A DNA stretch of 64,000 nt from Sinorhizobium alkalisoli (lineage in GTDB: Bacteria > Pseudomonadota > Alphaproteobacteria > Rhizobiales > Rhizobiaceae). Shown here piece by piece: positions 47,442 to 58,153 of the stretch. The stretch is from NCBI RefSeq assembly GCF_008932245.1, contig NZ_CP034909.1, forward strand, positions 3,218,001 to 3,282,000, written 5' to 3'. The notes under the pieces are model-generated. The model had not been told where the DNA came from. It searched no databases and saw only the letters and a program-made list of their open reading frames with translations. Within the stretch, counting starts at the first letter, position 1. Each line of letters begins with the position of its first letter. A program made the position numbers and the translations under genes.

Positions 47442-47905
47442 GGGTATGGATTCTGATTCCCACCGGGCTTCGTCGGTCCGGTTCTCGTTGTTTTGCCGCA
47501 GGGATTGCGGCCCTGAAGTTTCAAGTGCCGCCGGCACCTTTCTAGACACGGTCATGTCCCCCATCCGCCGTCATTGTCCCGGGCTGGAAGGCGTGCAAAC
47601 GGGCGTCGGCAGGGCTTGGGGCAATGGTGGTCGCAAAGCCGACGGCACGTTGGCTGTCACGGGCCGGGTGATGCATGAAGATGGCATTTTTTAGCCGCAG
47701 TGTCAGCGTCTTGCAAGGATTGCGAGCGCCGGCGCGGGCGGATTGAGCAGGCTCTGGTTCGTGCGAAACCGCACTGTCCACCTGCGGCCTCGGCTCGATG
47801 AACGTCTCTCTCACGTCAGCCCCTTCCTGGTGCCTGGAGGTCCGAGGCTCCGGATGGCGAACGGCCGCCGAAATGGCCGGCCCGGACTTCTCCCGCCGTT
47901 ATGGA
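47442..47905. other. intergenic region upstream of ndvB
   Basis: 464 bp between ndvB and the LysR gene. No supported gene. Open frames here are in-frame extensions of ndvB or lack an RBS. It should contain the ndvB promoter; no clear repeat was found by eye. Confidence 0.5.
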
Positions 47906-48799
47906 TCAGCCGACCTGCTCGCTGATCCACTCCTGGAAAGCGCGGCTGATCGGGTTCTCCAATTTTCCTTCCGGAACAACGAGATAATAGCTGTTCTCAG
48001 TCTGCATCGGTCGATCGAGAACGATCCGCAGCGTGCCTGCGGCAAGTTCCTGTTCGATGAGATAGCGGGGCAAAAGGGCAAAACCGAGACCTGCGGCCGC
48101 CGCTTCGATGACCATGGAAAACTGATCGAAGCGATTGCCGCGATAGGCGCCATCGCTGTCGACGCCGTTCGCCTCGAACCATTGCCCCCAGAGCTTCGGC
48201 CTGGTCGCCAGATGCAAGAGCGGACTGCCGCCGATATCCTCCGGCGTTTCGATCGGCCTTGCGGCGCCGAGCGCCGGGCTTGCGACCGGCACGATGACCT
48301 CGCTGCAGAGATAGCTGCAGGCGGCGCGCGCCCAGACGGGCTGACCGTAGTGAATGGCGAGGTCGAAATTCTGCTCCTCGAAATCGAAGGGGGCGGAGCG
48401 GGAGGCGATGTTGAGGACCGTGCCGGGATGTCGTCTCAGGAAATCAGGCAGCCGCGGCACCAACCAGCGGCTGCCGAAGGTCGGCAGCGATGCGATCGAG
48501 AGGCTCGTTTCGGCGCGGGCCGAGGCCATCGCGCGCACCATCAGTTCCTCGGTCTGGTTGAGCAGGCGACGGACCTCCGGCAGGAGTTTCTGCCCCGCAT
48601 CCGAGAGGATGACGCGCTGGCGCACCCGCTCGAAGAGAAGCACGCCGAGCTGCGTTTCCAGATCCTTGATCTGGCGGCTGACGGCGCTCTGCGTCAGGTT
48701 GAGTTCGGCGGCGGCCTGGGTGAAGCTGCCGTGGCGCGCAGCGCATTCGAAAGCCTGCAGCGTCGTCACGTCGGGAACCAGTCGGCGGCTCAACTTCAT
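47906..48799 (-). CDS. LysR-type transcriptional regulator
   Basis: A 297-residue LysR regulator of the GcvA-like branch. The helix-turn-helix is LQAFECAARHGSFTQAAAELNLTQSAVSRQIKDLETQLGVLLFER. The effector-binding half reads SIASLPTFGSRWLVPRLPDFLRRHPG and FDFEEQNFDLAIHYG. It is divergent from hglS with 113 bp between the two starts, the standard layout for a LysR protein that controls its neighbour. The likely effector is therefore an intermediate of the aminoadipate-2-oxoadipate route, by inference. Confidence 0.88.
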   Translation of the reverse strand: MKLSRRLVPDVTTLQAFECAARHGSFTQAAAELNLTQSAVSRQIKDLETQLGVLLFERVRQRVILSDAGQKLLPEVRRLLNQTEELMVRAMASARAETSLSIASLPTFGSRWLVPRLPDFLRRHPGTVLNIASRSAPFDFEEQNFDLAIHYGQPVWARAACSYLCSEVIVPVASPALGAARPIETPEDIGGSPLLHLATRPKLWGQWFEANGVDSDGAYRGNRFDQFSMVIEAAAAGLGFALLPRYLIEQELAAGTLRIVLDRPMQTENSYYLVVPEGKLENPISRAFQEWISEQVG

Positions 48800-48912
48800 T
48801 CCGGCCTCGCATTAACATAGTCGGATGCAGCGCGATACATGGCCGCAGCGTTCCGATATAATTAGAAATAAGAATGATCTTGTCCTTCACCCTTAGCGCC
48901 AGGCGAGTCCCA

Positions 48913-50310
48913 GTGAAAGAGAATAGTTACGTTTCGGCCGACGATATCCGATCGGCCTTTTCCGCCGCGATGTCCGTCATGTACCGGGAAGAGGTTCCCG
49001 CCTACGGGACGCTGATGGAACTGGTCGAAACGGTGAATGCGGAGACGCTGTCCGCCGACGCGCAATTGAAGGAGCGCCTCACGGCGACCGATTCTCTCGA
49101 GCGCATCTCCGAGGAGCGGCACGGGGCGATCCGTCTCGGCACGCCCGCGGAGCTTTCGATGATGCGCCGTGTCTTTGCGGTGATGGGCATGTATCCGGTC
49201 GGCTACTACGATCTTTCGACGGCGGGCGTGCCGGTGCATTCCACCGCCTTCCGCCCTGTCGGCGAGGCCTCGCTGAAGCGCAACCCCTTCCGCGTCTTCA
49301 CCTCGCTCCTGAGACTCGACCTGATCGCCGACGAGACCTTGCGCGCCGAGGCCGAGGCGAATCTCAAGGCGCGCCGCATATTCACGGAGGGAGCGGTCGA
49401 ACTCACCGAAAAAGCCGAGTATGATGGCGGGCTGGACGAGGTGGACGCGAAACGCTTCGTCGCCGAAGTGCTCGAGACCTTCCGCTGGCACGACCGGGCC
49501 AATGTCTGCGCCGATCTTTACAAGCGGCTGCACGACGCCCACCGGTTGATCGCCGACGTCGTCTCCTTCAAGGGGCCGCACATCAACCACCTGACGCCGC
49601 GCACGCTCGACATCGACAAGGTGCAGGCGCTGATGCCGGACCATGGCATTGCGCCCAAGGCGGTGGTCGAAGGCCCGCCGACGCGCCGGTGCCCGATCCT
49701 GCTGCGCCAGACCTCCTTCAAGGCGCTCGAAGAGGCCGTGTCGTTCCGCGACGGCGATGGCTGGAAGGCCGGTTCCCACACGGCCCGCTTCGGCGAGATC
49801 GAACAGCGCGGCATTGCGCTGACGCCAAAGGGCCGCGGTCTTTACGATTGGCTGCTCGACCAATCGCGCAAAGTCGTTCGCCCCACGGCCGACGGTTCCA
49901 ATGCCCGGGAGTACGAGGCAGCGCTTGCCGAAGTCTTCGCCGCCTTCCCCGATAGTTGGGCCGACATTCGCGAGGCGGGCCTCGGCTATTTCAGCTATTC
50001 TCTGACGGAGAAGGGCCGTCGGACGAAGCTTCCCGGCCGCCGTGACCTTGAGTCGCTGATCGCGGAGGGCCTCGTCCGGTTCGACCCGATCGTCTACGAA
50101 GACTTCCTTCCGGTCAGCGCCGCCGGTATCTTCCAGTCGAACCTCGGCGACGGCGCCCAGCAGGAATTCGTCGCAAGTCCGAACCAGCAACGCTTTGAGG
50201 CCGACCTTGGCGCCGCCGTGCTTAACGAATTCGATCACTATGCCGGCATCGAAAATGCATCGATCGAAAGCTGCCTCACGGCGCTGACCACGGCAGTCGC
50301 AGCGGAATGA
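48913..50310 (+). CDS. hglS: 2-oxoadipate dioxygenase/decarboxylase HglS (YdcJ family)
   Basis: A 465-residue protein of the DUF1338/YdcJ family. In Pseudomonas putida the homologue HglS turns 2-oxoadipate plus O2 into D-2-hydroxyglutarate and CO2, an Fe(II) enzyme of lysine catabolism. Family signatures are MYREEVPAYGTLMELVETVN, ERHGAIRLGTPAEL, GMYPVGYYDLSTAGVPVHSTAFRP, HINHLTPRTLDIDKVQ and YEDFLPVSAAGIFQSNLG. The iron ligands lie among these His and Glu residues. GTG 48913 is chosen because AGGCGAG precedes it and it aligns with YdcJ; ATG 48874 would add 13 residues. It heads the cluster with the next three genes; its partner dehydrogenase starts 10 bp later. Confidence 0.9.
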   Translation: MKENSYVSADDIRSAFSAAMSVMYREEVPAYGTLMELVETVNAETLSADAQLKERLTATDSLERISEERHGAIRLGTPAELSMMRRVFAVMGMYPVGYYDLSTAGVPVHSTAFRPVGEASLKRNPFRVFTSLLRLDLIADETLRAEAEANLKARRIFTEGAVELTEKAEYDGGLDEVDAKRFVAEVLETFRWHDRANVCADLYKRLHDAHRLIADVVSFKGPHINHLTPRTLDIDKVQALMPDHGIAPKAVVEGPPTRRCPILLRQTSFKALEEAVSFRDGDGWKAGSHTARFGEIEQRGIALTPKGRGLYDWLLDQSRKVVRPTADGSNAREYEAALAEVFAAFPDSWADIREAGLGYFSYSLTEKGRRTKLPGRRDLESLIAEGLVRFDPIVYEDFLPVSAAGIFQSNLGDGAQQEFVASPNQQRFEADLGAAVLNEFDHYAGIENASIESCLTALTTAVAAE

Positions 50311-50320
50311 TACGCCAACG

Positions 50321-51742
50321 ATGATTGACGAGCACCATATCGACGCGCTGAAGGCCCTTCTTGGCGACAAGGGCGTCGTCACGCGTCAGAAGGACATGGA
50401 AGCCTACGAGACGGGCGCCCGCTACGACCGCGGGCGGGCCAGTGCCGTCCTGCGACCGGCGACGACGGCGGAGACGTCTGCGGCCGTCGGCTATTGCGTG
50501 CGCAATGGCCTCGCCCTCATTCCGCAATCCGGCAATACCGGCCTCGTTTCCGGCTCGACCCCGGATGAGACCGGCAGCGAGGTGATCCTCAGCCTCGATC
50601 GGCTGACCCGCCAGTTCGAAATCGACACGGACAACCGCTCGGTTCGCCTCGATGCGGGCTTTCACCTGTCGGATCTCAACCGGAGGCTAGAGGATCACGA
50701 CCTGTTCTTCCCGATCGACCTCGGCGCCGATCCGCGGATCGGCGGGATGATTGCCACCAACACGGGTGGATCGCGCTTCCTGAAATATGGCGACGTCCGC
50801 CGCAACACGCTGGGGCTCAAAATAGTTCTTGCCGACGAGGCGGGGACCGTGCTCGACCTCGGTTGCAGCCTGCGCAAGAACAATACCGGCGTCGATTGGA
50901 AGCAGATATTCATCGGCACGTCCGGCGCCTTTGGCATCGTCACCGAATGCGTGCTCAATCTCGAACGCCTGCCGAAACAGACGGCGACGGCTTTCCTGGT
51001 GCCCTCGGGTGGCGCTCAAGTGCTGCCGCTGCTCAAGGCCATGGAGGAACGGCTCGGCGCCTATCTCTCGGCCTTCGAAGGCATGTCGAAGAATGCGATC
51101 GCCGCGGCTTTCGCCCATGTACCGTCGCTGAAGAATCCCTTCCAGGGCGGAAACATCCCGGACTATGTGATCCTCGCCGAGATCTCCCGCACCTGGGCGC
51201 CGCGCGAGGGCGAGCAATCGCTCGACGCGGTGCTGGAAAGCGTTCTTGCGGAGATCTGGGAAATGGAGGACGCGCCGCTCGCCGACGCCTTCATCGGTCC
51301 GCCGCACGAGACCTGGGCGCTGCGCCATGCACTTTCGGAAGGGGTGAAACATCTCGGCAAGCTGATCGCCTTCGACCTTTCCTTCCGTCGGGGTGACATC
51401 ATGGTCTTCTGCGACCATATGAAGGCGGAAATGCCGGCGCAATTTCCAGGCGTCATCATCTGCGATTTCGGCCATATCGGCGATGGCGGGGTGCACTTCA
51501 ATCTGGTCGTGGAGAAGAATAGCCCGCTATTGGCTGAACCGGGTTTCGAGCAGCGCCTGCGCGAATGGGTCTTCGCCGTCGCGGTCGAGCAATACGGCGG
51601 CAGTTTCAGTGCGGAGCATGCGATCGGCCGCCGCAACCAGGCCTGGTACGATTTCTACACGCCGGAAAAACTGAAGCAAATGGCGGCCGGTCTCAAGCCG
51701 ATCACCTCGCCGGGAAAGCTCGGCAGTGTGCGGTTCGGCTAG
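50321..51742 (+). CDS. FAD-linked D-2-hydroxyglutarate dehydrogenase-type oxidoreductase
   Basis: A 473-residue flavoprotein of the D-lactate/D-2-hydroxyglutarate dehydrogenase family. The FAD_binding_4 domain (about 40-220) has LIPQSGNTGLVSGSTPD, DLGADPRIGGMIATNTGGSRFLKYG and GTSGAFGIVTECVLNL. The C-terminal FAD-oxidase domain has CDFGHIGDGGVHFNLV (metal-binding histidines) and GSFSAEHAIGRRNQAWY. It starts 10 bp after hglS. HglS makes D-2-hydroxyglutarate, so the oxidation to 2-oxoglutarate is the obvious role here; general annotation would otherwise read glycolate oxidase-like or D-lactate dehydrogenase. Substrate assignment is from context. Confidence 0.85.
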   Translation: MIDEHHIDALKALLGDKGVVTRQKDMEAYETGARYDRGRASAVLRPATTAETSAAVGYCVRNGLALIPQSGNTGLVSGSTPDETGSEVILSLDRLTRQFEIDTDNRSVRLDAGFHLSDLNRRLEDHDLFFPIDLGADPRIGGMIATNTGGSRFLKYGDVRRNTLGLKIVLADEAGTVLDLGCSLRKNNTGVDWKQIFIGTSGAFGIVTECVLNLERLPKQTATAFLVPSGGAQVLPLLKAMEERLGAYLSAFEGMSKNAIAAAFAHVPSLKNPFQGGNIPDYVILAEISRTWAPREGEQSLDAVLESVLAEIWEMEDAPLADAFIGPPHETWALRHALSEGVKHLGKLIAFDLSFRRGDIMVFCDHMKAEMPAQFPGVIICDFGHIGDGGVHFNLVVEKNSPLLAEPGFEQRLREWVFAVAVEQYGGSFSAEHAIGRRNQAWYDFYTPEKLKQMAAGLKPITSPGKLGSVRFG

Positions 51743-51782
51743 CGCACCAGCCCAAACGACAGGATCAAACGGGAGTCAGCAC

Positions 51783-53315
<1,533 letters not shown>

Positions 53316-53351
53316 TTGGCTACATCGAATGATTGGCGAATAGGATCGGCC

Positions 53352-54584
53352 ATGACCATCAATGCAACGGTCAAGGGGGCGGGATTTCGGCCCGCCTCGC
53401 GGATTTCCTCGATCGGTGTTTCAGAAATCCTGAAGATCGGCGCCCGCGCGGGTGCCATGAAGCGCGACGGCAAGCCGGTGATCATCCTCGGCGCCGGCGA
53501 GCCGGATTTCGACACGCCGGACCACATCAAACAGGCCGCCTGGGAAGCGATCCAGCGCGGCGAGACGAAATACACGGCGCTCGACGGCACGCCGGAGCTC
53601 AAAGCGGCAATCCGCGAGAAATTCGAGCGCGAGAACGGCCTCGCCTATGGGCTGGACGAGATCACGGTTGGCACGGGCGCCAAGCAGATCCTGTTCAACG
53701 CCATGATGGCGACAGTCGATTCCGGCGACGAGGTGATCATCCCGACGCCCTACTGGACCTCCTATTCGGACATTGTTCAGATTTCGGGGGGCAGGCCGGT
53801 CCTGATCGCCTGCGATGCATCCTCGGGATTCCGGCTTACCGCCGAAAGGCTCGAGGCGGCGATCACGCCCCGGACGCGCTGGGTGCTCTTGAACTCGCCT
53901 TCCAATCCCTCGGGGGCAGCCTACGGCGCCGAGGACTACCGGCCGCTTCTCGACGTGCTGCTCAGGCACCCGCATGTCTGGCTGCTGGTCGATGACATGT
54001 ACGAGCATATCGTCTATGACGACTTCCGTTTCGTGACACCCGCTCAGCTCGAGCCAAGGCTGAACGACCGCACGCTGACCGTCAACGGCGTATCGAAGGC
54101 CTATGCGATGACCGGCTGGCGGATTGGCTATGCCGGCGGCCCACGCGAGCTGATCAAGGCCATGGCGGTGGTGCAGAGCCAGTCGACCTCCTGCCCCTCC
54201 TCCGTCAGCCAGGCCGCCTCGGTCGCGGCGCTCAATGGCCCGCAGGACTTCCTGAAGGACCGCGCCGACAGCTTCAAGCGCCGCCGGGATCTCGTCGTCG
54301 CCGGCCTGAATGCAATCGACGGCCTCGACTGCCGCATCCCGGAAGGCGCCTTCTATACCTTCTCCGGCTGCGCCGGGATGCTCGGCAAGGTGACGCCCAA
54401 TGGCAAGACGATCGAGACGGATGCGGATTTCTGCGCCTACCTGCTCGATGACGCGCATGTCGCCGTCGTCCCCGGCTCTGCATTCGGCCTCTCGCCGTTC
54501 TTCCGCATCTCCTATGCGACCTCGGAGGCAGAACTGAAGGAAGCGCTCACCCGCATCGCCGCCGCCTGCGGACGGCTTTCGTGA
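53352..54584 (+). CDS. aatB: class I aminotransferase AatB, likely acting on 2-aminoadipate
   Basis: A 410-residue PLP enzyme of the aspartate aminotransferase fold. Motifs: ILGAGEPDFDTPDHIKQAA, KYTALDGTPELKAAI, NSPSNPSGAAYG, and the PLP lysine in VNGVSKAYAMTGWRIGYAGG. S. meliloti has a homologue called aatB with aspartate aminotransferase activity, in the same neighbourhood. The position after amaB suggests the physiological reaction is 2-aminoadipate plus 2-oxoglutarate to 2-oxoadipate plus glutamate, the missing step between AmaB and HglS. ATG 53352 has AGGATC upstream, 36 bp after amaB. A palindrome at 54604-54622 follows the stop. Confidence 0.85.
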   Translation: MTINATVKGAGFRPASRISSIGVSEILKIGARAGAMKRDGKPVIILGAGEPDFDTPDHIKQAAWEAIQRGETKYTALDGTPELKAAIREKFERENGLAYGLDEITVGTGAKQILFNAMMATVDSGDEVIIPTPYWTSYSDIVQISGGRPVLIACDASSGFRLTAERLEAAITPRTRWVLLNSPSNPSGAAYGAEDYRPLLDVLLRHPHVWLLVDDMYEHIVYDDFRFVTPAQLEPRLNDRTLTVNGVSKAYAMTGWRIGYAGGPRELIKAMAVVQSQSTSCPSSVSQAASVAALNGPQDFLKDRADSFKRRRDLVVAGLNAIDGLDCRIPEGAFYTFSGCAGMLGKVTPNGKTIETDADFCAYLLDDAHVAVVPGSAFGLSPFFRISYATSEAELKEALTRIAAACGRLS

Positions 54585-54593
54585 TGGCGTAGT

Positions 54594-54765
54594 TTGCCCC
54601 TCTCCTCGGGTTTAACCCGAGGACTAGCCCTCTCCTCCGCGCGCCGGGAGCGGGGACCCCTCGCTGGTGTACAGACTCGGGGTGAGGCGAGACAGTGCGG
54701 CAAGCCCCTTCTCCCCGCCTGCGGGAGAAGGTCGCGGCAGCGGGATGACGGGCTTTCCGTGCACC
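54594..54765 (+). repeat. composite palindromic intergenic repeat
   Basis: Contains a nearly perfect palindrome CCTCGGGTT / AACCCGAGG (54604-54622), and CCTTCTCCC / GGGAGAAGG (54707-54715 and 54723-54731), the same hairpin family as at 23196-23221. No gene is supported. It separates the convergent aatB and XRE-cupin genes and probably terminates both. Confidence 0.6.
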
Positions 54766-55313
54766 TCAAAAAGTCGGCGGCGTGCAGGCGCTGATCACCT
54801 CGCAGGGCACCGGCCCGACGCAGCGGAAGCGGTGCGGCCGGCGGCTTTCGAAATAATAGGCGTCGCCCGGCCCGAGAATGCGCCTTTCCCCGTCTACGGT
54901 CACCTCCAGCCGGCCCGAGAGCACGATGCCGCCCTCCTCGCCCTCGTGCACCAGCGGCACCTTGCCGGTATCCGCCCCCGGCTGATAGCACTCCTTCAGG
55001 ATTTGCAGGCTGCGGCCGAAGAGATTGTCGCCGATCTGGCGGTAGAAATCGGTCCCTTTCCGATCTCCACCAGTTCCTCGGCCGCGTAGAAGGCTTGGCG
55101 CGGCTTTTCCGGCTCGAAGGAGAAGAACTCGGCAAGCCCGATCGGAATGCCGTCGAGAATGCGCTTCAAGGCGCCGACCGACGGGTTGGAGGCGTTAGAC
55201 TCGATCAGCGAGATGGTGGAATTGGTGACGCCCGCGCGCTTGGCAAGTTCGCGTTGAGAGAGATTGTGCATGAGCCGCACATGGCGCAGGCGGTTGCCGA
55301 TATCGACGCTCAT
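54766..55313 (-). pseudogene. XRE-cupin regulator, frameshifted (PuuR-like)
   Basis: Two frames make one XRE-HTH plus cupin regulator. The first (55313 to about 55046) reads IGNRLRHVRLMHNLSQRELAKRAGVTNSTISLIESNASNPSVGALKRIL, a helix-turn-helix, then LAEFFSF and AAEELVEIGKGPIS. The second (from 55044 to 54766) continues YRQIGDNLFGRSLQILKECYQPGAD, VPLVHEGEEGGIVLSGRLEVTVDGERRILGPGDAYYFESRRPHRF, the cupin, with the end ISACTPPTF. One base is missing in the 55044-55055 interval; adding it restores one open frame. It may be a real loss of function or a sequencing error. Its divergent neighbour is an omega-aminotransferase, a typical target. Confidence 0.85.
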
Positions 55314-55457
55314 TGCAAATCCCGTGTTGATCTTGTTTGAAATACCGAAACCCTACCATCACAGCATGAAGAAAAACAATAAGTTAGATCATCGAAGAAA
55401 AGGACTTGTTCGAGTATTCAAATCATGGCGTCAATCGCGCGACCACAGGAGGATGCC

Positions 55458-56795
55458 ATGACCGCCCACATCAAGCCCAATGCTCCGGTTCTCGACAGCT
55501 ACTGGATGCCCTTCACCGCCAACCGCCAGTTCAAGGCGGGACCCCGCCTGCTCGCATCGGCCGAAGGCATGCATTATACCAGCGTCGATGGCCGCAGGAT
55601 CCTCGACGGTACTGCCGGCCTCTGGTGCGTCAATGCCGGCCACAGTCGTCGCCAGATCGCCGCGGCCGTCGAGCGCCAGCTGACGACGATGGACTATGCC
55701 CCCTCCTTCCAGATGGGCCATCCGATCGCCTTCGACTTTGCCGAGCGTCTCGCCGAAATTGCCCCGGGCGGTCCCGATGCCAGGCTAGACCGGATATTCT
55801 TCACCGGCTCAGGCTCGGAATCCGTGGACACGGCCTTGAAGATCGCGCTCGCCTATCAGCGCTCGATCGGCCAGGGCACGCGCACACGATTGATCGGCCG
55901 CGAGCGCGGCTATCACGGCGTCGGCTTCGGCGGCATTTCCGTCGGCGGCATCGTCAACAATCGCCGGGTCTTCCCGCAGCTTCCCGGTTCCGGTCATCTG
56001 CGTCACACCCATGATCCTGCCAGGAATGCCTTCGTCAAGGGCCAGCCGGAGCATGGCGCCGAACTCGCCGACGATCTCGAAAGGCTGGTGGCGCTGCATG
56101 GCGCCGAGACGATCGCCGCCTGCATCGTCGAGCCCGTCGCCGGTTCGACCGGCGTGCTGATCCCGCCGAAGGGCTATCTCGAAAGGCTGCGGGCGATCTG
56201 CGACAAACACTGCATCCTGTTGATCTTCGACGAGGTGATCACCGGCTTCGGCCGCCTCGGTGCCGCCTTCGCAACCGATTATTTCGGCGTGACGCCGGAT
56301 ATCGTCACCACCGCCAAGGGCCTCACCAATGGCGCGATCCCGATGGGGGCCGTCTTCGCCAGCCGTAAGGTGCACGACGCGCTGATGCATGGGCCGAAAG
56401 GCCAGATCGAGCTCTTTCACGGCTACACCTATTCCGGCCATCCGGCCGCCTGCGCCGCCGGCATCGCCACGCTTGACATCTATCGCGACGAAGGCCTGAT
56501 GACGCGCGCCGCGGAACTGCAGGAGGACTGGCATTCGGCCATCCATTCGCTGAAAGGCCTGCCGAACGTCATCGACATCCGCACCATCGGCCTGATCGCC
56601 GGCATCGAGCTCACACCGCGCGACGGCGCGCCCGGCGCCCGCGCCTATGACGTCTTCGTCGACTGCTTCGAGAAGGGGCTGATGATCCGCGTCACCGGCG
56701 ACATCATCGCCTTCTCGCCGCCGCTGATCGCCGAGAAGAGCCATATCGGCGAGATCGTCTCGATCCTCGGTGAGGCGCTGAAGCGGGCGAAGTAG
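55458..56795 (+). CDS. omega-amino acid:pyruvate aminotransferase
   Basis: A 445-residue class III aminotransferase. Motifs: YWMPFTANRQFKAGPRLLASAEGMHYTSVDGRRILDGTAGLWCVNAGH, FTGSGSESVDTALKIA, GRERGYHGVGFGG, LIFDEVITGFGRLGAAFA and the PLP lysine in TTAKGLTNGAIPMGAVF. The pattern is that of beta-alanine or taurine:pyruvate transaminases. AGGAGG at 55448-55453 precedes ATG 55458. It is divergent from the frameshifted XRE-cupin regulator across 144 A/T-rich bp. Members of that regulator family control polyamine or amine catabolism, so amine-derived amino acids are likely substrates. Confidence 0.9.
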   Translation: MTAHIKPNAPVLDSYWMPFTANRQFKAGPRLLASAEGMHYTSVDGRRILDGTAGLWCVNAGHSRRQIAAAVERQLTTMDYAPSFQMGHPIAFDFAERLAEIAPGGPDARLDRIFFTGSGSESVDTALKIALAYQRSIGQGTRTRLIGRERGYHGVGFGGISVGGIVNNRRVFPQLPGSGHLRHTHDPARNAFVKGQPEHGAELADDLERLVALHGAETIAACIVEPVAGSTGVLIPPKGYLERLRAICDKHCILLIFDEVITGFGRLGAAFATDYFGVTPDIVTTAKGLTNGAIPMGAVFASRKVHDALMHGPKGQIELFHGYTYSGHPAACAAGIATLDIYRDEGLMTRAAELQEDWHSAIHSLKGLPNVIDIRTIGLIAGIELTPRDGAPGARAYDVFVDCFEKGLMIRVTGDIIAFSPPLIAEKSHIGEIVSILGEALKRAK

Positions 56796-56881
56796 TAGGA
56801 TGGGCGACTCGGGAATGATCGCTGCGGGCGCTTAACCCCTCCCACCTGTGAGAGGGGCATTCACGCCATGCCTGAAGCGGC

Positions 56882-58153
56882 TCACCGTACCAAAATCGCC
56901 CGGAAATCATTGACATTCGTGCCCGTCGGCCCGGGCACGAACAGGTCTCCGCTCACCGAAAAGGCGGACCAGGCGTCGTGGCCGGCGAGATGGGCACGCG
57001 GGTCGATGCCTGCCGCGCGCATGCGGGCGATGCTCGCCCCATCGACAAAGGCACCGGCATTGTCTTCCGAGCCGTCGATGCCGTCCGTGTCGGCGGCAAG
57101 CGCATCGATCCCGGCAACGCCGTCGATGTCCAGCGCCAGCGACAGCAGAAGCTCGCTGTTGCGCCCGCCCTTGCCGTAGAGGTCGCCGGAAATGGTGACC
57201 GTGGTCTCGCCGCCGGAAAGCAGCACGACGGGTTTTGTAAACGGACGGTTCCGTGCGACCACCTCGCGCGCCAGCGCCGCATGCATGCGGCCGATGTCGC
57301 GCGCCTCGCCCTCGATCGCGTCCGAGAGAATGACCGCCTCGATGCCCGCCTCGCGGGCGCGCGCCGCAGCCGCCTCGAGCGACACGGCCGCGGAGGCGAT
57401 CACATGGACCTCGTTGCCGGCAAAGGCACGGTCATCCGGGCTCGGCGCGCGGGCGGCATCGGAGGCGAGGTGCGCCATCACCCTCTCCGGCAAGGTCAGG
57501 GCGTATCGGGCAACGATAGCGCGCGCTTCCTCGAGGCTCGACCGGTCCGGCACCGTCGGCCCGGAGGCGACGAAGGCCGGGTTGTCGCCGGGGACGTCGG
57601 AAACGACGAGGCTGACGACCCGTGCCGGCGATGCCGCCAGGGCGAGCCGTCCGCCCTTGATGCGGGAAATATGTTTGCGGACGACGTTCATCGCCGAAAT
57701 CGGCGCCCCGGAGGCAAGCAGCGCCCGGTGGACGGCGATCTCGTCCTCAAGCGTCAGGCCCTCGGGCGGCGCCGGCAATAGCGCCGAACCGCCGCCGGAG
57801 ATCAGCGCCACCACGAGATCGTCTTCGGCCAGCCCTTCCACCCGTTCGATGAGCGCCGAAGAGGCGACGAGCCCTGCCTCGTCCGGCACCGGATGCGCCG
57901 ATTGCAGCACCTTGATGCGCTTGCATGCCTCGATCGGTCCGTGCCGGGCGACGACAACGCCCTCGAGCGGACCGTCCCAGAGCCGCTCGAAGGCCGCCGC
58001 CATCTGGCTTGCCGCCTTGCCGGCGCCGACAACGATCGTCCGCCCCCTTGGTCGCGCCGGCAGATGCGCGCGGATGGCGGCCTCGGGATCCGCCGCCGTG
58101 ACGGCGGCTTGGAAGAGGGCGGTCAGAAAGGAACGCGGCTCGATCAACGTCAT
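56882..58153 (-). CDS. glycerate 2-kinase (MOFRL/DUF4147 family)
   Basis: A 423-residue protein of the GckA/TtuD family; it phosphorylates D-glycerate to 2-phosphoglycerate (older annotations say hydroxypyruvate reductase). The nucleotide-binding DUF4147 domain has RTIVVGAGKAASQMAAAFE, ALISGGGSALLPAPPEGLTLEDE and SLVVSDVPGDNPAFVASGPTVPD. The C-terminal MOFRL domain has VLLSGGETTVTISGDLYGKGGRNSELLLSLAL and DTDGIDGSEDNAGAFVDG. ATG 58153 gives a standard N terminus; the frame continues upstream into RIME-like DNA. It is convergent with the aminotransferase and may link serine/hydroxypyruvate or tartronate metabolism. Confidence 0.88.
   Translation of the reverse strand: MTLIEPRSFLTALFQAAVTAADPEAAIRAHLPARPRGRTIVVGAGKAASQMAAAFERLWDGPLEGVVVARHGPIEACKRIKVLQSAHPVPDEAGLVASSALIERVEGLAEDDLVVALISGGGSALLPAPPEGLTLEDEIAVHRALLASGAPISAMNVVRKHISRIKGGRLALAASPARVVSLVVSDVPGDNPAFVASGPTVPDRSSLEEARAIVARYALTLPERVMAHLASDAARAPSPDDRAFAGNEVHVIASAAVSLEAAAARAREAGIEAVILSDAIEGEARDIGRMHAALAREVVARNRPFTKPVVLLSGGETTVTISGDLYGKGGRNSELLLSLALDIDGVAGIDALAADTDGIDGSEDNAGAFVDGASIARMRAAGIDPRAHLAGHDAWSAFSVSGDLFVPGPTGTNVNDFRAILVR

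Follow-up and report, generated by a model that had tools for sequence, protein, structure and literature searches.

A LysR-linked gene cluster of Sinorhizobium alkalisoli with a probable role in the route from allysine to 2-oxoglutarate via D-2-hydroxyglutarate

Sinorhizobium alkalisoli is a soil bacterium akin to the root-nodule symbionts of alfalfa. A window of 64,000 nucleotides of its genome (NZ_CP034909.1, positions 3,218,001 to 3,282,000, the whole stretch of DNA analysed here) carries a gene for a LysR-family regulator on the minus strand, divergent from four closely spaced plus-strand genes encoding HglS, a flavin adenine dinucleotide (FAD) dehydrogenase, AmaB and AatB, in this order. 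These genes very probably constitute a LysR-controlled operon that completes the breakdown of L-lysine and/or pipecolate via allysine, 2-aminoadipate, 2-oxoadipate, D-2-hydroxyglutarate and 2-oxoglutarate. This assignment is well supported because protein families, gene order, co-occurrence and the presence of YdiJ at part of the loci devoid of the FAD gene all point to it. The chemistry of the route is known; what appears to be new is its assembly in a single LysR-linked cluster, together with a dehydrogenase clade whose aligned sequences lack the residue corresponding to Lys401 of the human D-2-hydroxyglutarate dehydrogenase (D2HGDH).

In the proposed pathway, the breakdown of L-lysine and that of pipecolate would both give L-piperideine-6-carboxylate (P6C)/allysine, the entry point. 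AmaB would oxidise this compound to L-2-aminoadipate, AatB would transaminate L-2-aminoadipate and 2-oxoglutarate to 2-oxoadipate and glutamate, HglS would use one O2 to convert 2-oxoadipate to D-2-hydroxyglutarate and CO2, and the FAD enzyme would turn D-2-hydroxyglutarate into 2-oxoglutarate, its electrons perhaps passing to an electron-transferring flavoprotein (ETF) or to the quinone pool. As the 2-oxoglutarate released by the last enzyme would refill the acceptor of AatB, the net organic product would be glutamate, and the overall conversion would be allysine + NAD + O2 + acceptor to glutamate + CO2 + NADH + reduced acceptor.

HglS and AmaB

The HglS protein of the window passes the curated equivalog cut-off of NF049974 (748.5 bits, cut-off 550), matches PF07063 with 544.7 bits and aligns with the Pseudomonas putida HglS (6w1g, 560.6 bits) over the PVS loop and over Arg74, the substrate arginine, which occupies the same position in both enzymes. 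His70, His226 and Glu295, which we take to be the positions of the HHE metal triad, are present and invariant in six aligned sequences. The window protein is therefore predicted, with good support from its sequence, to be a 2-oxoadipate dioxygenase/decarboxylase (2-oxoadipate + O2 to D-2-hydroxyglutarate + CO2). The passages of PMC7286885 dealing with HglS describe this chemistry and the specificity arginine Arg74, give a use of O2 that is one to one with 2-oxoadipate, and present published S. meliloti fitness data as support for a conserved role of HglS. Since HglS consumes O2 in this ratio, the route should be aerobic.

The aldehyde dehydrogenase likewise exceeds the curated equivalog cut-off of its model, NF050084 (L-piperidine-6-carboxylate dehydrogenase; 823.8 bits, cut-off 730). 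Its PDB matches are headed by 6dbb (749 bits), followed by entries that include aminoadipic semialdehyde dehydrogenases and antiquitin.

Conservation of the cluster and apparent replacement of the FAD gene

One scan of genome contigs gave at least 583 HglS loci, and the gene order was followed over the best 80 of them. According to the record titles, nearly all of these loci come from Alphaproteobacteria (one is labelled Arenimonas), so that the counts concern near relatives; they are not independent, because the loci are the nearest of the at least 583 and are related by descent. Neighbouring genes were placed by tblastn, AatB being counted at 60% identity or more. The exact order LysR-HglS-FAD-AmaB-AatB recurs in 22 of the 80 loci, and the five-gene arrangement is therefore more than chance. 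The same order without the FAD gene was found in 20 loci, LysR-HglS-AmaB only in 21, and HglS-FAD-AatB without AmaB in six, the other 11 displaying other combinations. Globally, LysR stands beside HglS in 73 loci, AmaB in 69, AatB in 49 and the FAD gene in 35, while AmaB and/or AatB adjoins HglS in 75.

HglS is patchily distributed, being present in 10 of 199 genomes of the order and in 46 of 151 genomes of the family. Within these 151 family genomes, HglS and the FAD gene occur together in 20 (6.4 expected), and the two genes are adjacent in all 20; a single genome harbours a FAD-like match (46% identity) without HglS. HglS also co-occurs with AmaB (42 genomes, 27.1 expected), which is absent from four HglS genomes at the threshold used, and with YdiJ (nine genomes, 3.7 expected). 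The p-values of these co-occurrences ignore the relatedness of the genomes.

At some loci, YdiJ occupies the place after aatB. Indeed, in 13 of the 80 loci, all of them among the 45 devoid of the FAD gene, a ydiJ gene on the strand of aatB starts 20-258 bases downstream of it, and no locus carries both ydiJ and the FAD gene (0 of 35 loci with the FAD gene; Fisher p 0.0004, uncorrected for descent). The YdiJ representative (one was scanned) scores 1460 bits against NF049975, a model named D-2-hydroxyglutarate dehydrogenase whose cut-off is 1350. One more locus without the FAD gene has a 48% YdiJ match on the other strand and was left out of the 13. YdiJ is a protein of about 1010 aa, in contrast to the 473 aa of the FAD protein, which scores 51.9 against the same cut-off of 1350. 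The presence of YdiJ at part of the loci that lack the FAD gene supports a role of the latter in the last step, though the alternation of the two is no strict rule. No YdiJ was found in the S. alkalisoli genome at E <= 1e-200.

Sources of allysine

Two kinds of enzymes encoded near the cluster in related genomes, AmaA-like and lysine dehydrogenase-like (LysDH-like), would both yield P6C/allysine. In 34 of the 80 loci, a cluster gene has, no more than 400 bases away, a gene for an AmaA-like protein (43-100% identical to the representative); the one representative scanned reaches 489 bits with the model of L-pipecolate oxidase (cut-off 600). A LysDH-like gene, with saccharopine-dehydrogenase domains, is found 0.1 to 3.5 kb beyond the last cluster gene in 16 of the 80 loci. 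At least one of the two genes occurs close to the cluster in 46 of the 80 loci, and both do in four.

The upstream enzymes would also be encoded in the S. alkalisoli genome, at places unlinked to the cluster: an AmaA-like protein at C1:2197218-2198492 (447 bits against the pipecolate oxidase cut-off of 600) and a LysDH-like protein at C1:3031308-3032462. The latter has Sacchrp_dh domains, and its label is weak: the PDB entry that it matches best, 3abi (88.6 bits), bears the title of uncharacterised PH1688, which we take to be a lysine 6-dehydrogenase, and the protein has no NCBIfam match at 1e-30. A 483-aa saccharopine-dehydrogenase-like protein and a pair resembling carboxynorspermidine synthase/decarboxylase fell just or well below their cut-offs and were not taken as allysine sources.

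The greater frequency of AmaA-like genes next to the cluster, together with the AmaA-like protein encoded by the genome itself, makes it a serious possibility, though not the favoured one, that in the living cell the route is mainly fed by pipecolate from plants, or by a derivative of it, and not by free lysine. Against this stand the LysDH-like gene of the same genome and the co-occurrence of LysDH-like genes with HglS in 32 of the 151 family genomes (13.7 expected); LysDH-like genes co-occur with AmaB as well (43 genomes, 26.5 expected). The two readings are not exclusive, as lysine and pipecolate sources would feed the same operon.

The FAD dehydrogenase

The FAD protein (473 aa) belongs to PF01565/PF02913 (FAD_binding_4/FAD-oxidase_C), and no NCBIfam model matches it above the model's own cut-off. 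It scores higher with human D2HGDH (208 bits) and with Rhodopseudomonas palustris 3pm9 (205 bits), deposited as a putative oxidoreductase, than with LctD (122 bits) and D-lactate dehydrogenase (D-LDH, 103 bits). Its AlphaFold2 model, built from 23 sequences (mean pLDDT 82.9), has 3pm9 and 6lpn, the human enzyme, as first matches, with TM values of 0.82-0.89. In a tree of 20 hand-picked rows, which has long branches flagged by the tool, the 14 rows of the FAD clade group together (100/100) and have D2HGDH as their neighbour (100/99); LctD and two GlcD-like proteins of the S. alkalisoli genome lie outside this grouping.

The active site was compared in an alignment of 32 copies, comprising the window protein and 31 of the 35 FAD loci, four of which were left out. 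The metal and catalytic residues of human D2HGDH (Arg386, His434, His441, Glu475 and His476) are identical in all 32; this set is not specific to D2HGDH, because D-LDH and GlcD have it in common. Asn443 is also kept in all 32 and the position of Thr390 is Ser, whereas hydrophobic residues occupy these two positions in GlcD and D-LDH, according to the part of PMC7801405 that deals with them. The position of Tyr432 is Phe and that of Thr390 Ser in the FAD enzyme, as in a canonical-looking D2HGDH of the same genome. The window enzyme thus has the fold, the metal and catalytic residues and Asn443 in common with the human and Rhodopseudomonas enzymes (6lpn, 3pm9) and differs from them by an Ala in place of Lys401 and by its separate clade. 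In its account of the roles of the active-site residues, PMC7801405 describes Lys401 as the lysine of the C5-carboxylate, strictly conserved in D2HGDH orthologues, and reports that its mutation abolished the activity of the human enzyme. From these sequences, the FAD enzyme would be a sister clade of D2HGDH and not a plain member, since it departs from the human type at Lys401. Its clade and its context make it likely that it works like D2HGDH, in which case its substrate would be D-2-hydroxyglutarate. Arg408 was considered as a residue compensating for the lost Lys401, an idea weakened by the alignment, in which LctD appears to have an Arg there too.

Several observations weigh against the proposed pathway. 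At the position of Lys401, 31 of the 32 aligned copies have Ala and one has Gly, and a separate canonical-looking D2HGDH that retains the lysine is encoded elsewhere in the genome, at C1:481442-482668. Neither the FAD gene nor YdiJ is carried by 32 of the 80 loci, and four of 21 family genomes with the FAD gene also carry YdiJ. On the side of lysine, the nearby LysDH-like gene shares the strand of the cluster in none of the 16 loci, and 14 of the 46 HglS genomes of the family have no LysDH-like gene at the threshold used. No ETF gene is annotated in five of nine named-record regions of FAD-clade genes, and no sigma-70-like promoter was matched (0 promoter-like sites against 0.9 in shuffles). 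A sequence-only reading of the window had proposed the full route from allysine to 2-oxoglutarate, a D-2-hydroxyglutarate dehydrogenase as its last enzyme, and a lysine or aminoadipate catabolic operon, and is partly borne out. The route holds for HglS and AmaB by family and is favoured by gene order and co-occurrence, while the substrates of the FAD enzyme and AatB are here given conditionally. A function of this kind for the last enzyme is favoured by clade and context; the name itself is unsafe, Lys401 being replaced and a canonical-looking D2HGDH being encoded elsewhere. The pathway genes agree with a catabolic operon, of which the cluster begins at allysine, the candidate sources being unlinked in the genome.

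Could the pathway be right up to D-2-hydroxyglutarate, with the FAD enzyme acting on another substrate and the D2HGDH at C1:481442-482668 performing the last step? Besides the existence of this second enzyme, the loss of the C5-carboxylate lysine argues for it, as it extends from the 32 aligned copies to all nine named-record copies (9 of 19 matched plasmid records, one being S. meliloti), where the position is Ala in eight and Ser in one. The single copy with Ser also lacks Asn443 and the Ser at position 390. Furthermore, one plasmid FAD copy, from Mesorhizobium, is accompanied by an aminotransferase, and the annotation shows no HglS over about 5 kb around it. The retention of Asn443 and of Ser at the Thr390 position, and the distribution of YdiJ over the loci with and without the FAD gene, speak for the last-step role and render this alternative unlikely, as they do its specific versions, in which, for example, the enzyme would oxidise D-2-hydroxyadipate, and so supply HglS with 2-oxoadipate, or would accept a wider range of D-2-hydroxyacids.

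A more general proposal, which we put forward tentatively, is that the FAD enzymes of these clusters form a distinct class of D-2-hydroxyacid dehydrogenases, perhaps ETF-linked, which would bind their substrate without Lys401, either because the distal carboxylate is read differently or because the substrate is another one. If this were true and the substrate did differ (e.g. D-2-hydroxyadipate), lysine catabolism would have an extra step. Four of the nine named-record regions have annotated genes for ETF subunits close to the FAD-clade gene: they lie behind the Aureimonas and Variovorax clusters and next to the copies of S. americanum and Ochrobactrum, which are not part of HglS clusters. No ETF gene was found by family scans of the window region around the cluster.

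Some FAD-clade copies are encoded outside HglS clusters, and their substrates may differ. One on an Ochrobactrum plasmid, near genes for 3-oxoadipyl-CoA thiolase and ETF, has lost Asn443 and Ser390, and one in S. americanum is accompanied by ETF and transhydrogenase genes (coordinates of these copies: L104 4962-6410; L109 4956-6380). On the Mesorhizobium plasmid mentioned above (L105 4989-7690), the pair of FAD gene and aminotransferase has a LysR gene and a betaine/proline-type ABC transporter as neighbours.

AatB

The best PDB match of AatB is 6f35, Aspartate aminotransferase B (825 bits), in an alignment whose first residue is number 13 of the open reading frame (ORF) that opens with TTG; with its best NCBIfam model the protein stays below the cut-off (573 against 617), and it is 89.5% identical to the copy of S. 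meliloti Ak57. At the level of sequence, it is an AatB-type class I aminotransferase and nothing more specific; in the proposed pathway it would use L-2-aminoadipate. That it is a housekeeping aspartate aminotransferase that happens to sit downstream, as its PDB name and the 31 of 80 loci without AatB (60% identity or more) beside HglS might suggest, is improbable in view of its retention beside HglS in the other 49, six of which lack AmaB, and of the aminotransferases also annotated in the Paracoccus, Mameliella, Variovorax, Aureimonas and Roseovarius clusters.

The LysR regulator and the lysR-hglS gap

The best NCBIfam model of the regulator is GcvA (270.9 bits, below the cut-off of 288). 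Given the divergent arrangement, the operon would be regulated by LysR and an inducer. A candidate operator core (at most one mismatch) occurs in 40 of 71 lysR-hglS gaps, against a mean of 12 and a maximum of 22 in shuffles; of the associated dyad, at least three of four arm pairs are present in 10 of the 40, none in nine, and two of four in the window copy. This operator candidate is weak, because its pattern was picked visually from the very sequences in which it was then counted. A search for palindromic motifs mostly recovered a conserved region at the start of lysR. Terminator-like sites number 5, against 6.1 in shuffles.

Layout of the cluster and neighbouring genes

The four same-strand genes and the divergent LysR gene described by the sequence-only reading are borne out by an ORF check (Table 1). 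The copies of S. meliloti Ak57 have the same order and strands (identities: LysR 91, HglS 88, FAD 88, aldehyde dehydrogenase 95 and AatB 90%), and comparison with them indicates the starts of HglS (GTG), the aldehyde dehydrogenase and AatB (ATG) that open the intervals of Table 1. With the matched starts of the last two, the four plus-strand genes are separated by 10, 40 and 36 bases. The Ak57 record labels their products 'VOC family protein', 'FAD-binding oxidoreductase', 'aldehyde dehydrogenase family protein' and 'pyridoxal phosphate-dependent aminotransferase', in agreement with the earlier expectation that the cluster would be annotated as unrelated genes; the five-gene order that the same reading proposed to seek in relatives is the one recovered exactly in 22 loci. 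No Rfam match lies within 47500-56900.

Table 1. Positions in the window of the cluster genes and of the candidate operator.
Feature	Position	Strand	Basis
LysR-family regulator, presumed controller	47906..48799	-	PF00126 + PF03466
Candidate operator, weak: AT-rich core with partial dyad, lysR-hglS gap	48852..48866	.	motif counts
hglS, predicted 2-oxoadipate dioxygenase/decarboxylase	48913..50310 (GTG; or ATG 48874)	+	PF07063, NF049974, 6w1g
FAD D-2-hydroxyacid dehydrogenase, putative sister clade of D2HGDH	50321..51742	+	PF01565/PF02913, tree, model
amaB, predicted L-piperidine-6-carboxylate/allysine dehydrogenase	51783..53315 (ORF open from GTG 51726)	+	NF050084, PDB 6dbb
aatB, class I aminotransferase	53352..54584 (probable ATG; ORF open from TTG 53316)	+	PDB 6f35

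Upstream of the cluster lies a 2873-aa ORF that corresponds by position to ndvB of S. meliloti, and downstream are genes for a cupin regulator, an AptA-like aminotransferase, a MOFRL/DUF4147 protein and a GMC oxidoreductase. The cupin-domain regulator (54769-55313, minus strand) is split over two frames, probably through a frameshift or a sequencing error, and either part shares about 94% identity with the protein of S. meliloti Ak57. The omega-aminotransferase (55425-56795, plus strand) matches AptA with 725.6 bits (cut-off 500) and is probably outside the pathway, because it stands beside the cluster in only four of the 80 loci (L012-L015; L011 ends too early to tell). The record CP090106.1 (L103) is labelled S. 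meliloti plasmid pSymB, yet it is 3.72 Mb long with ndvB next to the cluster, and may be a mislabelled chromosome.

Relation to known systems and significance

In P. putida, the aminotransferase and a YdiJ-type D-2-hydroxyglutarate dehydrogenase are encoded elsewhere than HglS, whereas the window has the aminotransferase, the P6C dehydrogenase and the FAD dehydrogenase in one LysR-linked cluster with HglS. The conversion of 2-oxoadipate to D-2-hydroxyglutarate is the same in the D-lysine/2-aminoadipate route of P. putida, as described in the relevant part of PMC7286885. No description of the five-gene cluster came up in the literature searched, which excludes most subscription papers, so that its absence is not proven; the main text of PMC9007349 (Price 2022) contains none of the terms hydroxyglutarate, 2-oxoadipate, aminoadipate and meliloti. 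The locus tag smc04385, which presumably belongs to this cluster, is among the genes changed in a nolR comparison, according to PMC12445080.

As a candidate operon, compact and LysR-linked, the cluster would represent the 2-oxoadipate/2-hydroxyglutarate route in rhizobia and give AatB a role that can be tested. It could also guide, as a marker, the re-annotation of genes that at present bear the names VOC protein and FAD-binding oxidoreductase, and its FAD clade would offer a natural test of how flavin dehydrogenases recognize D-2-hydroxyglutarate.

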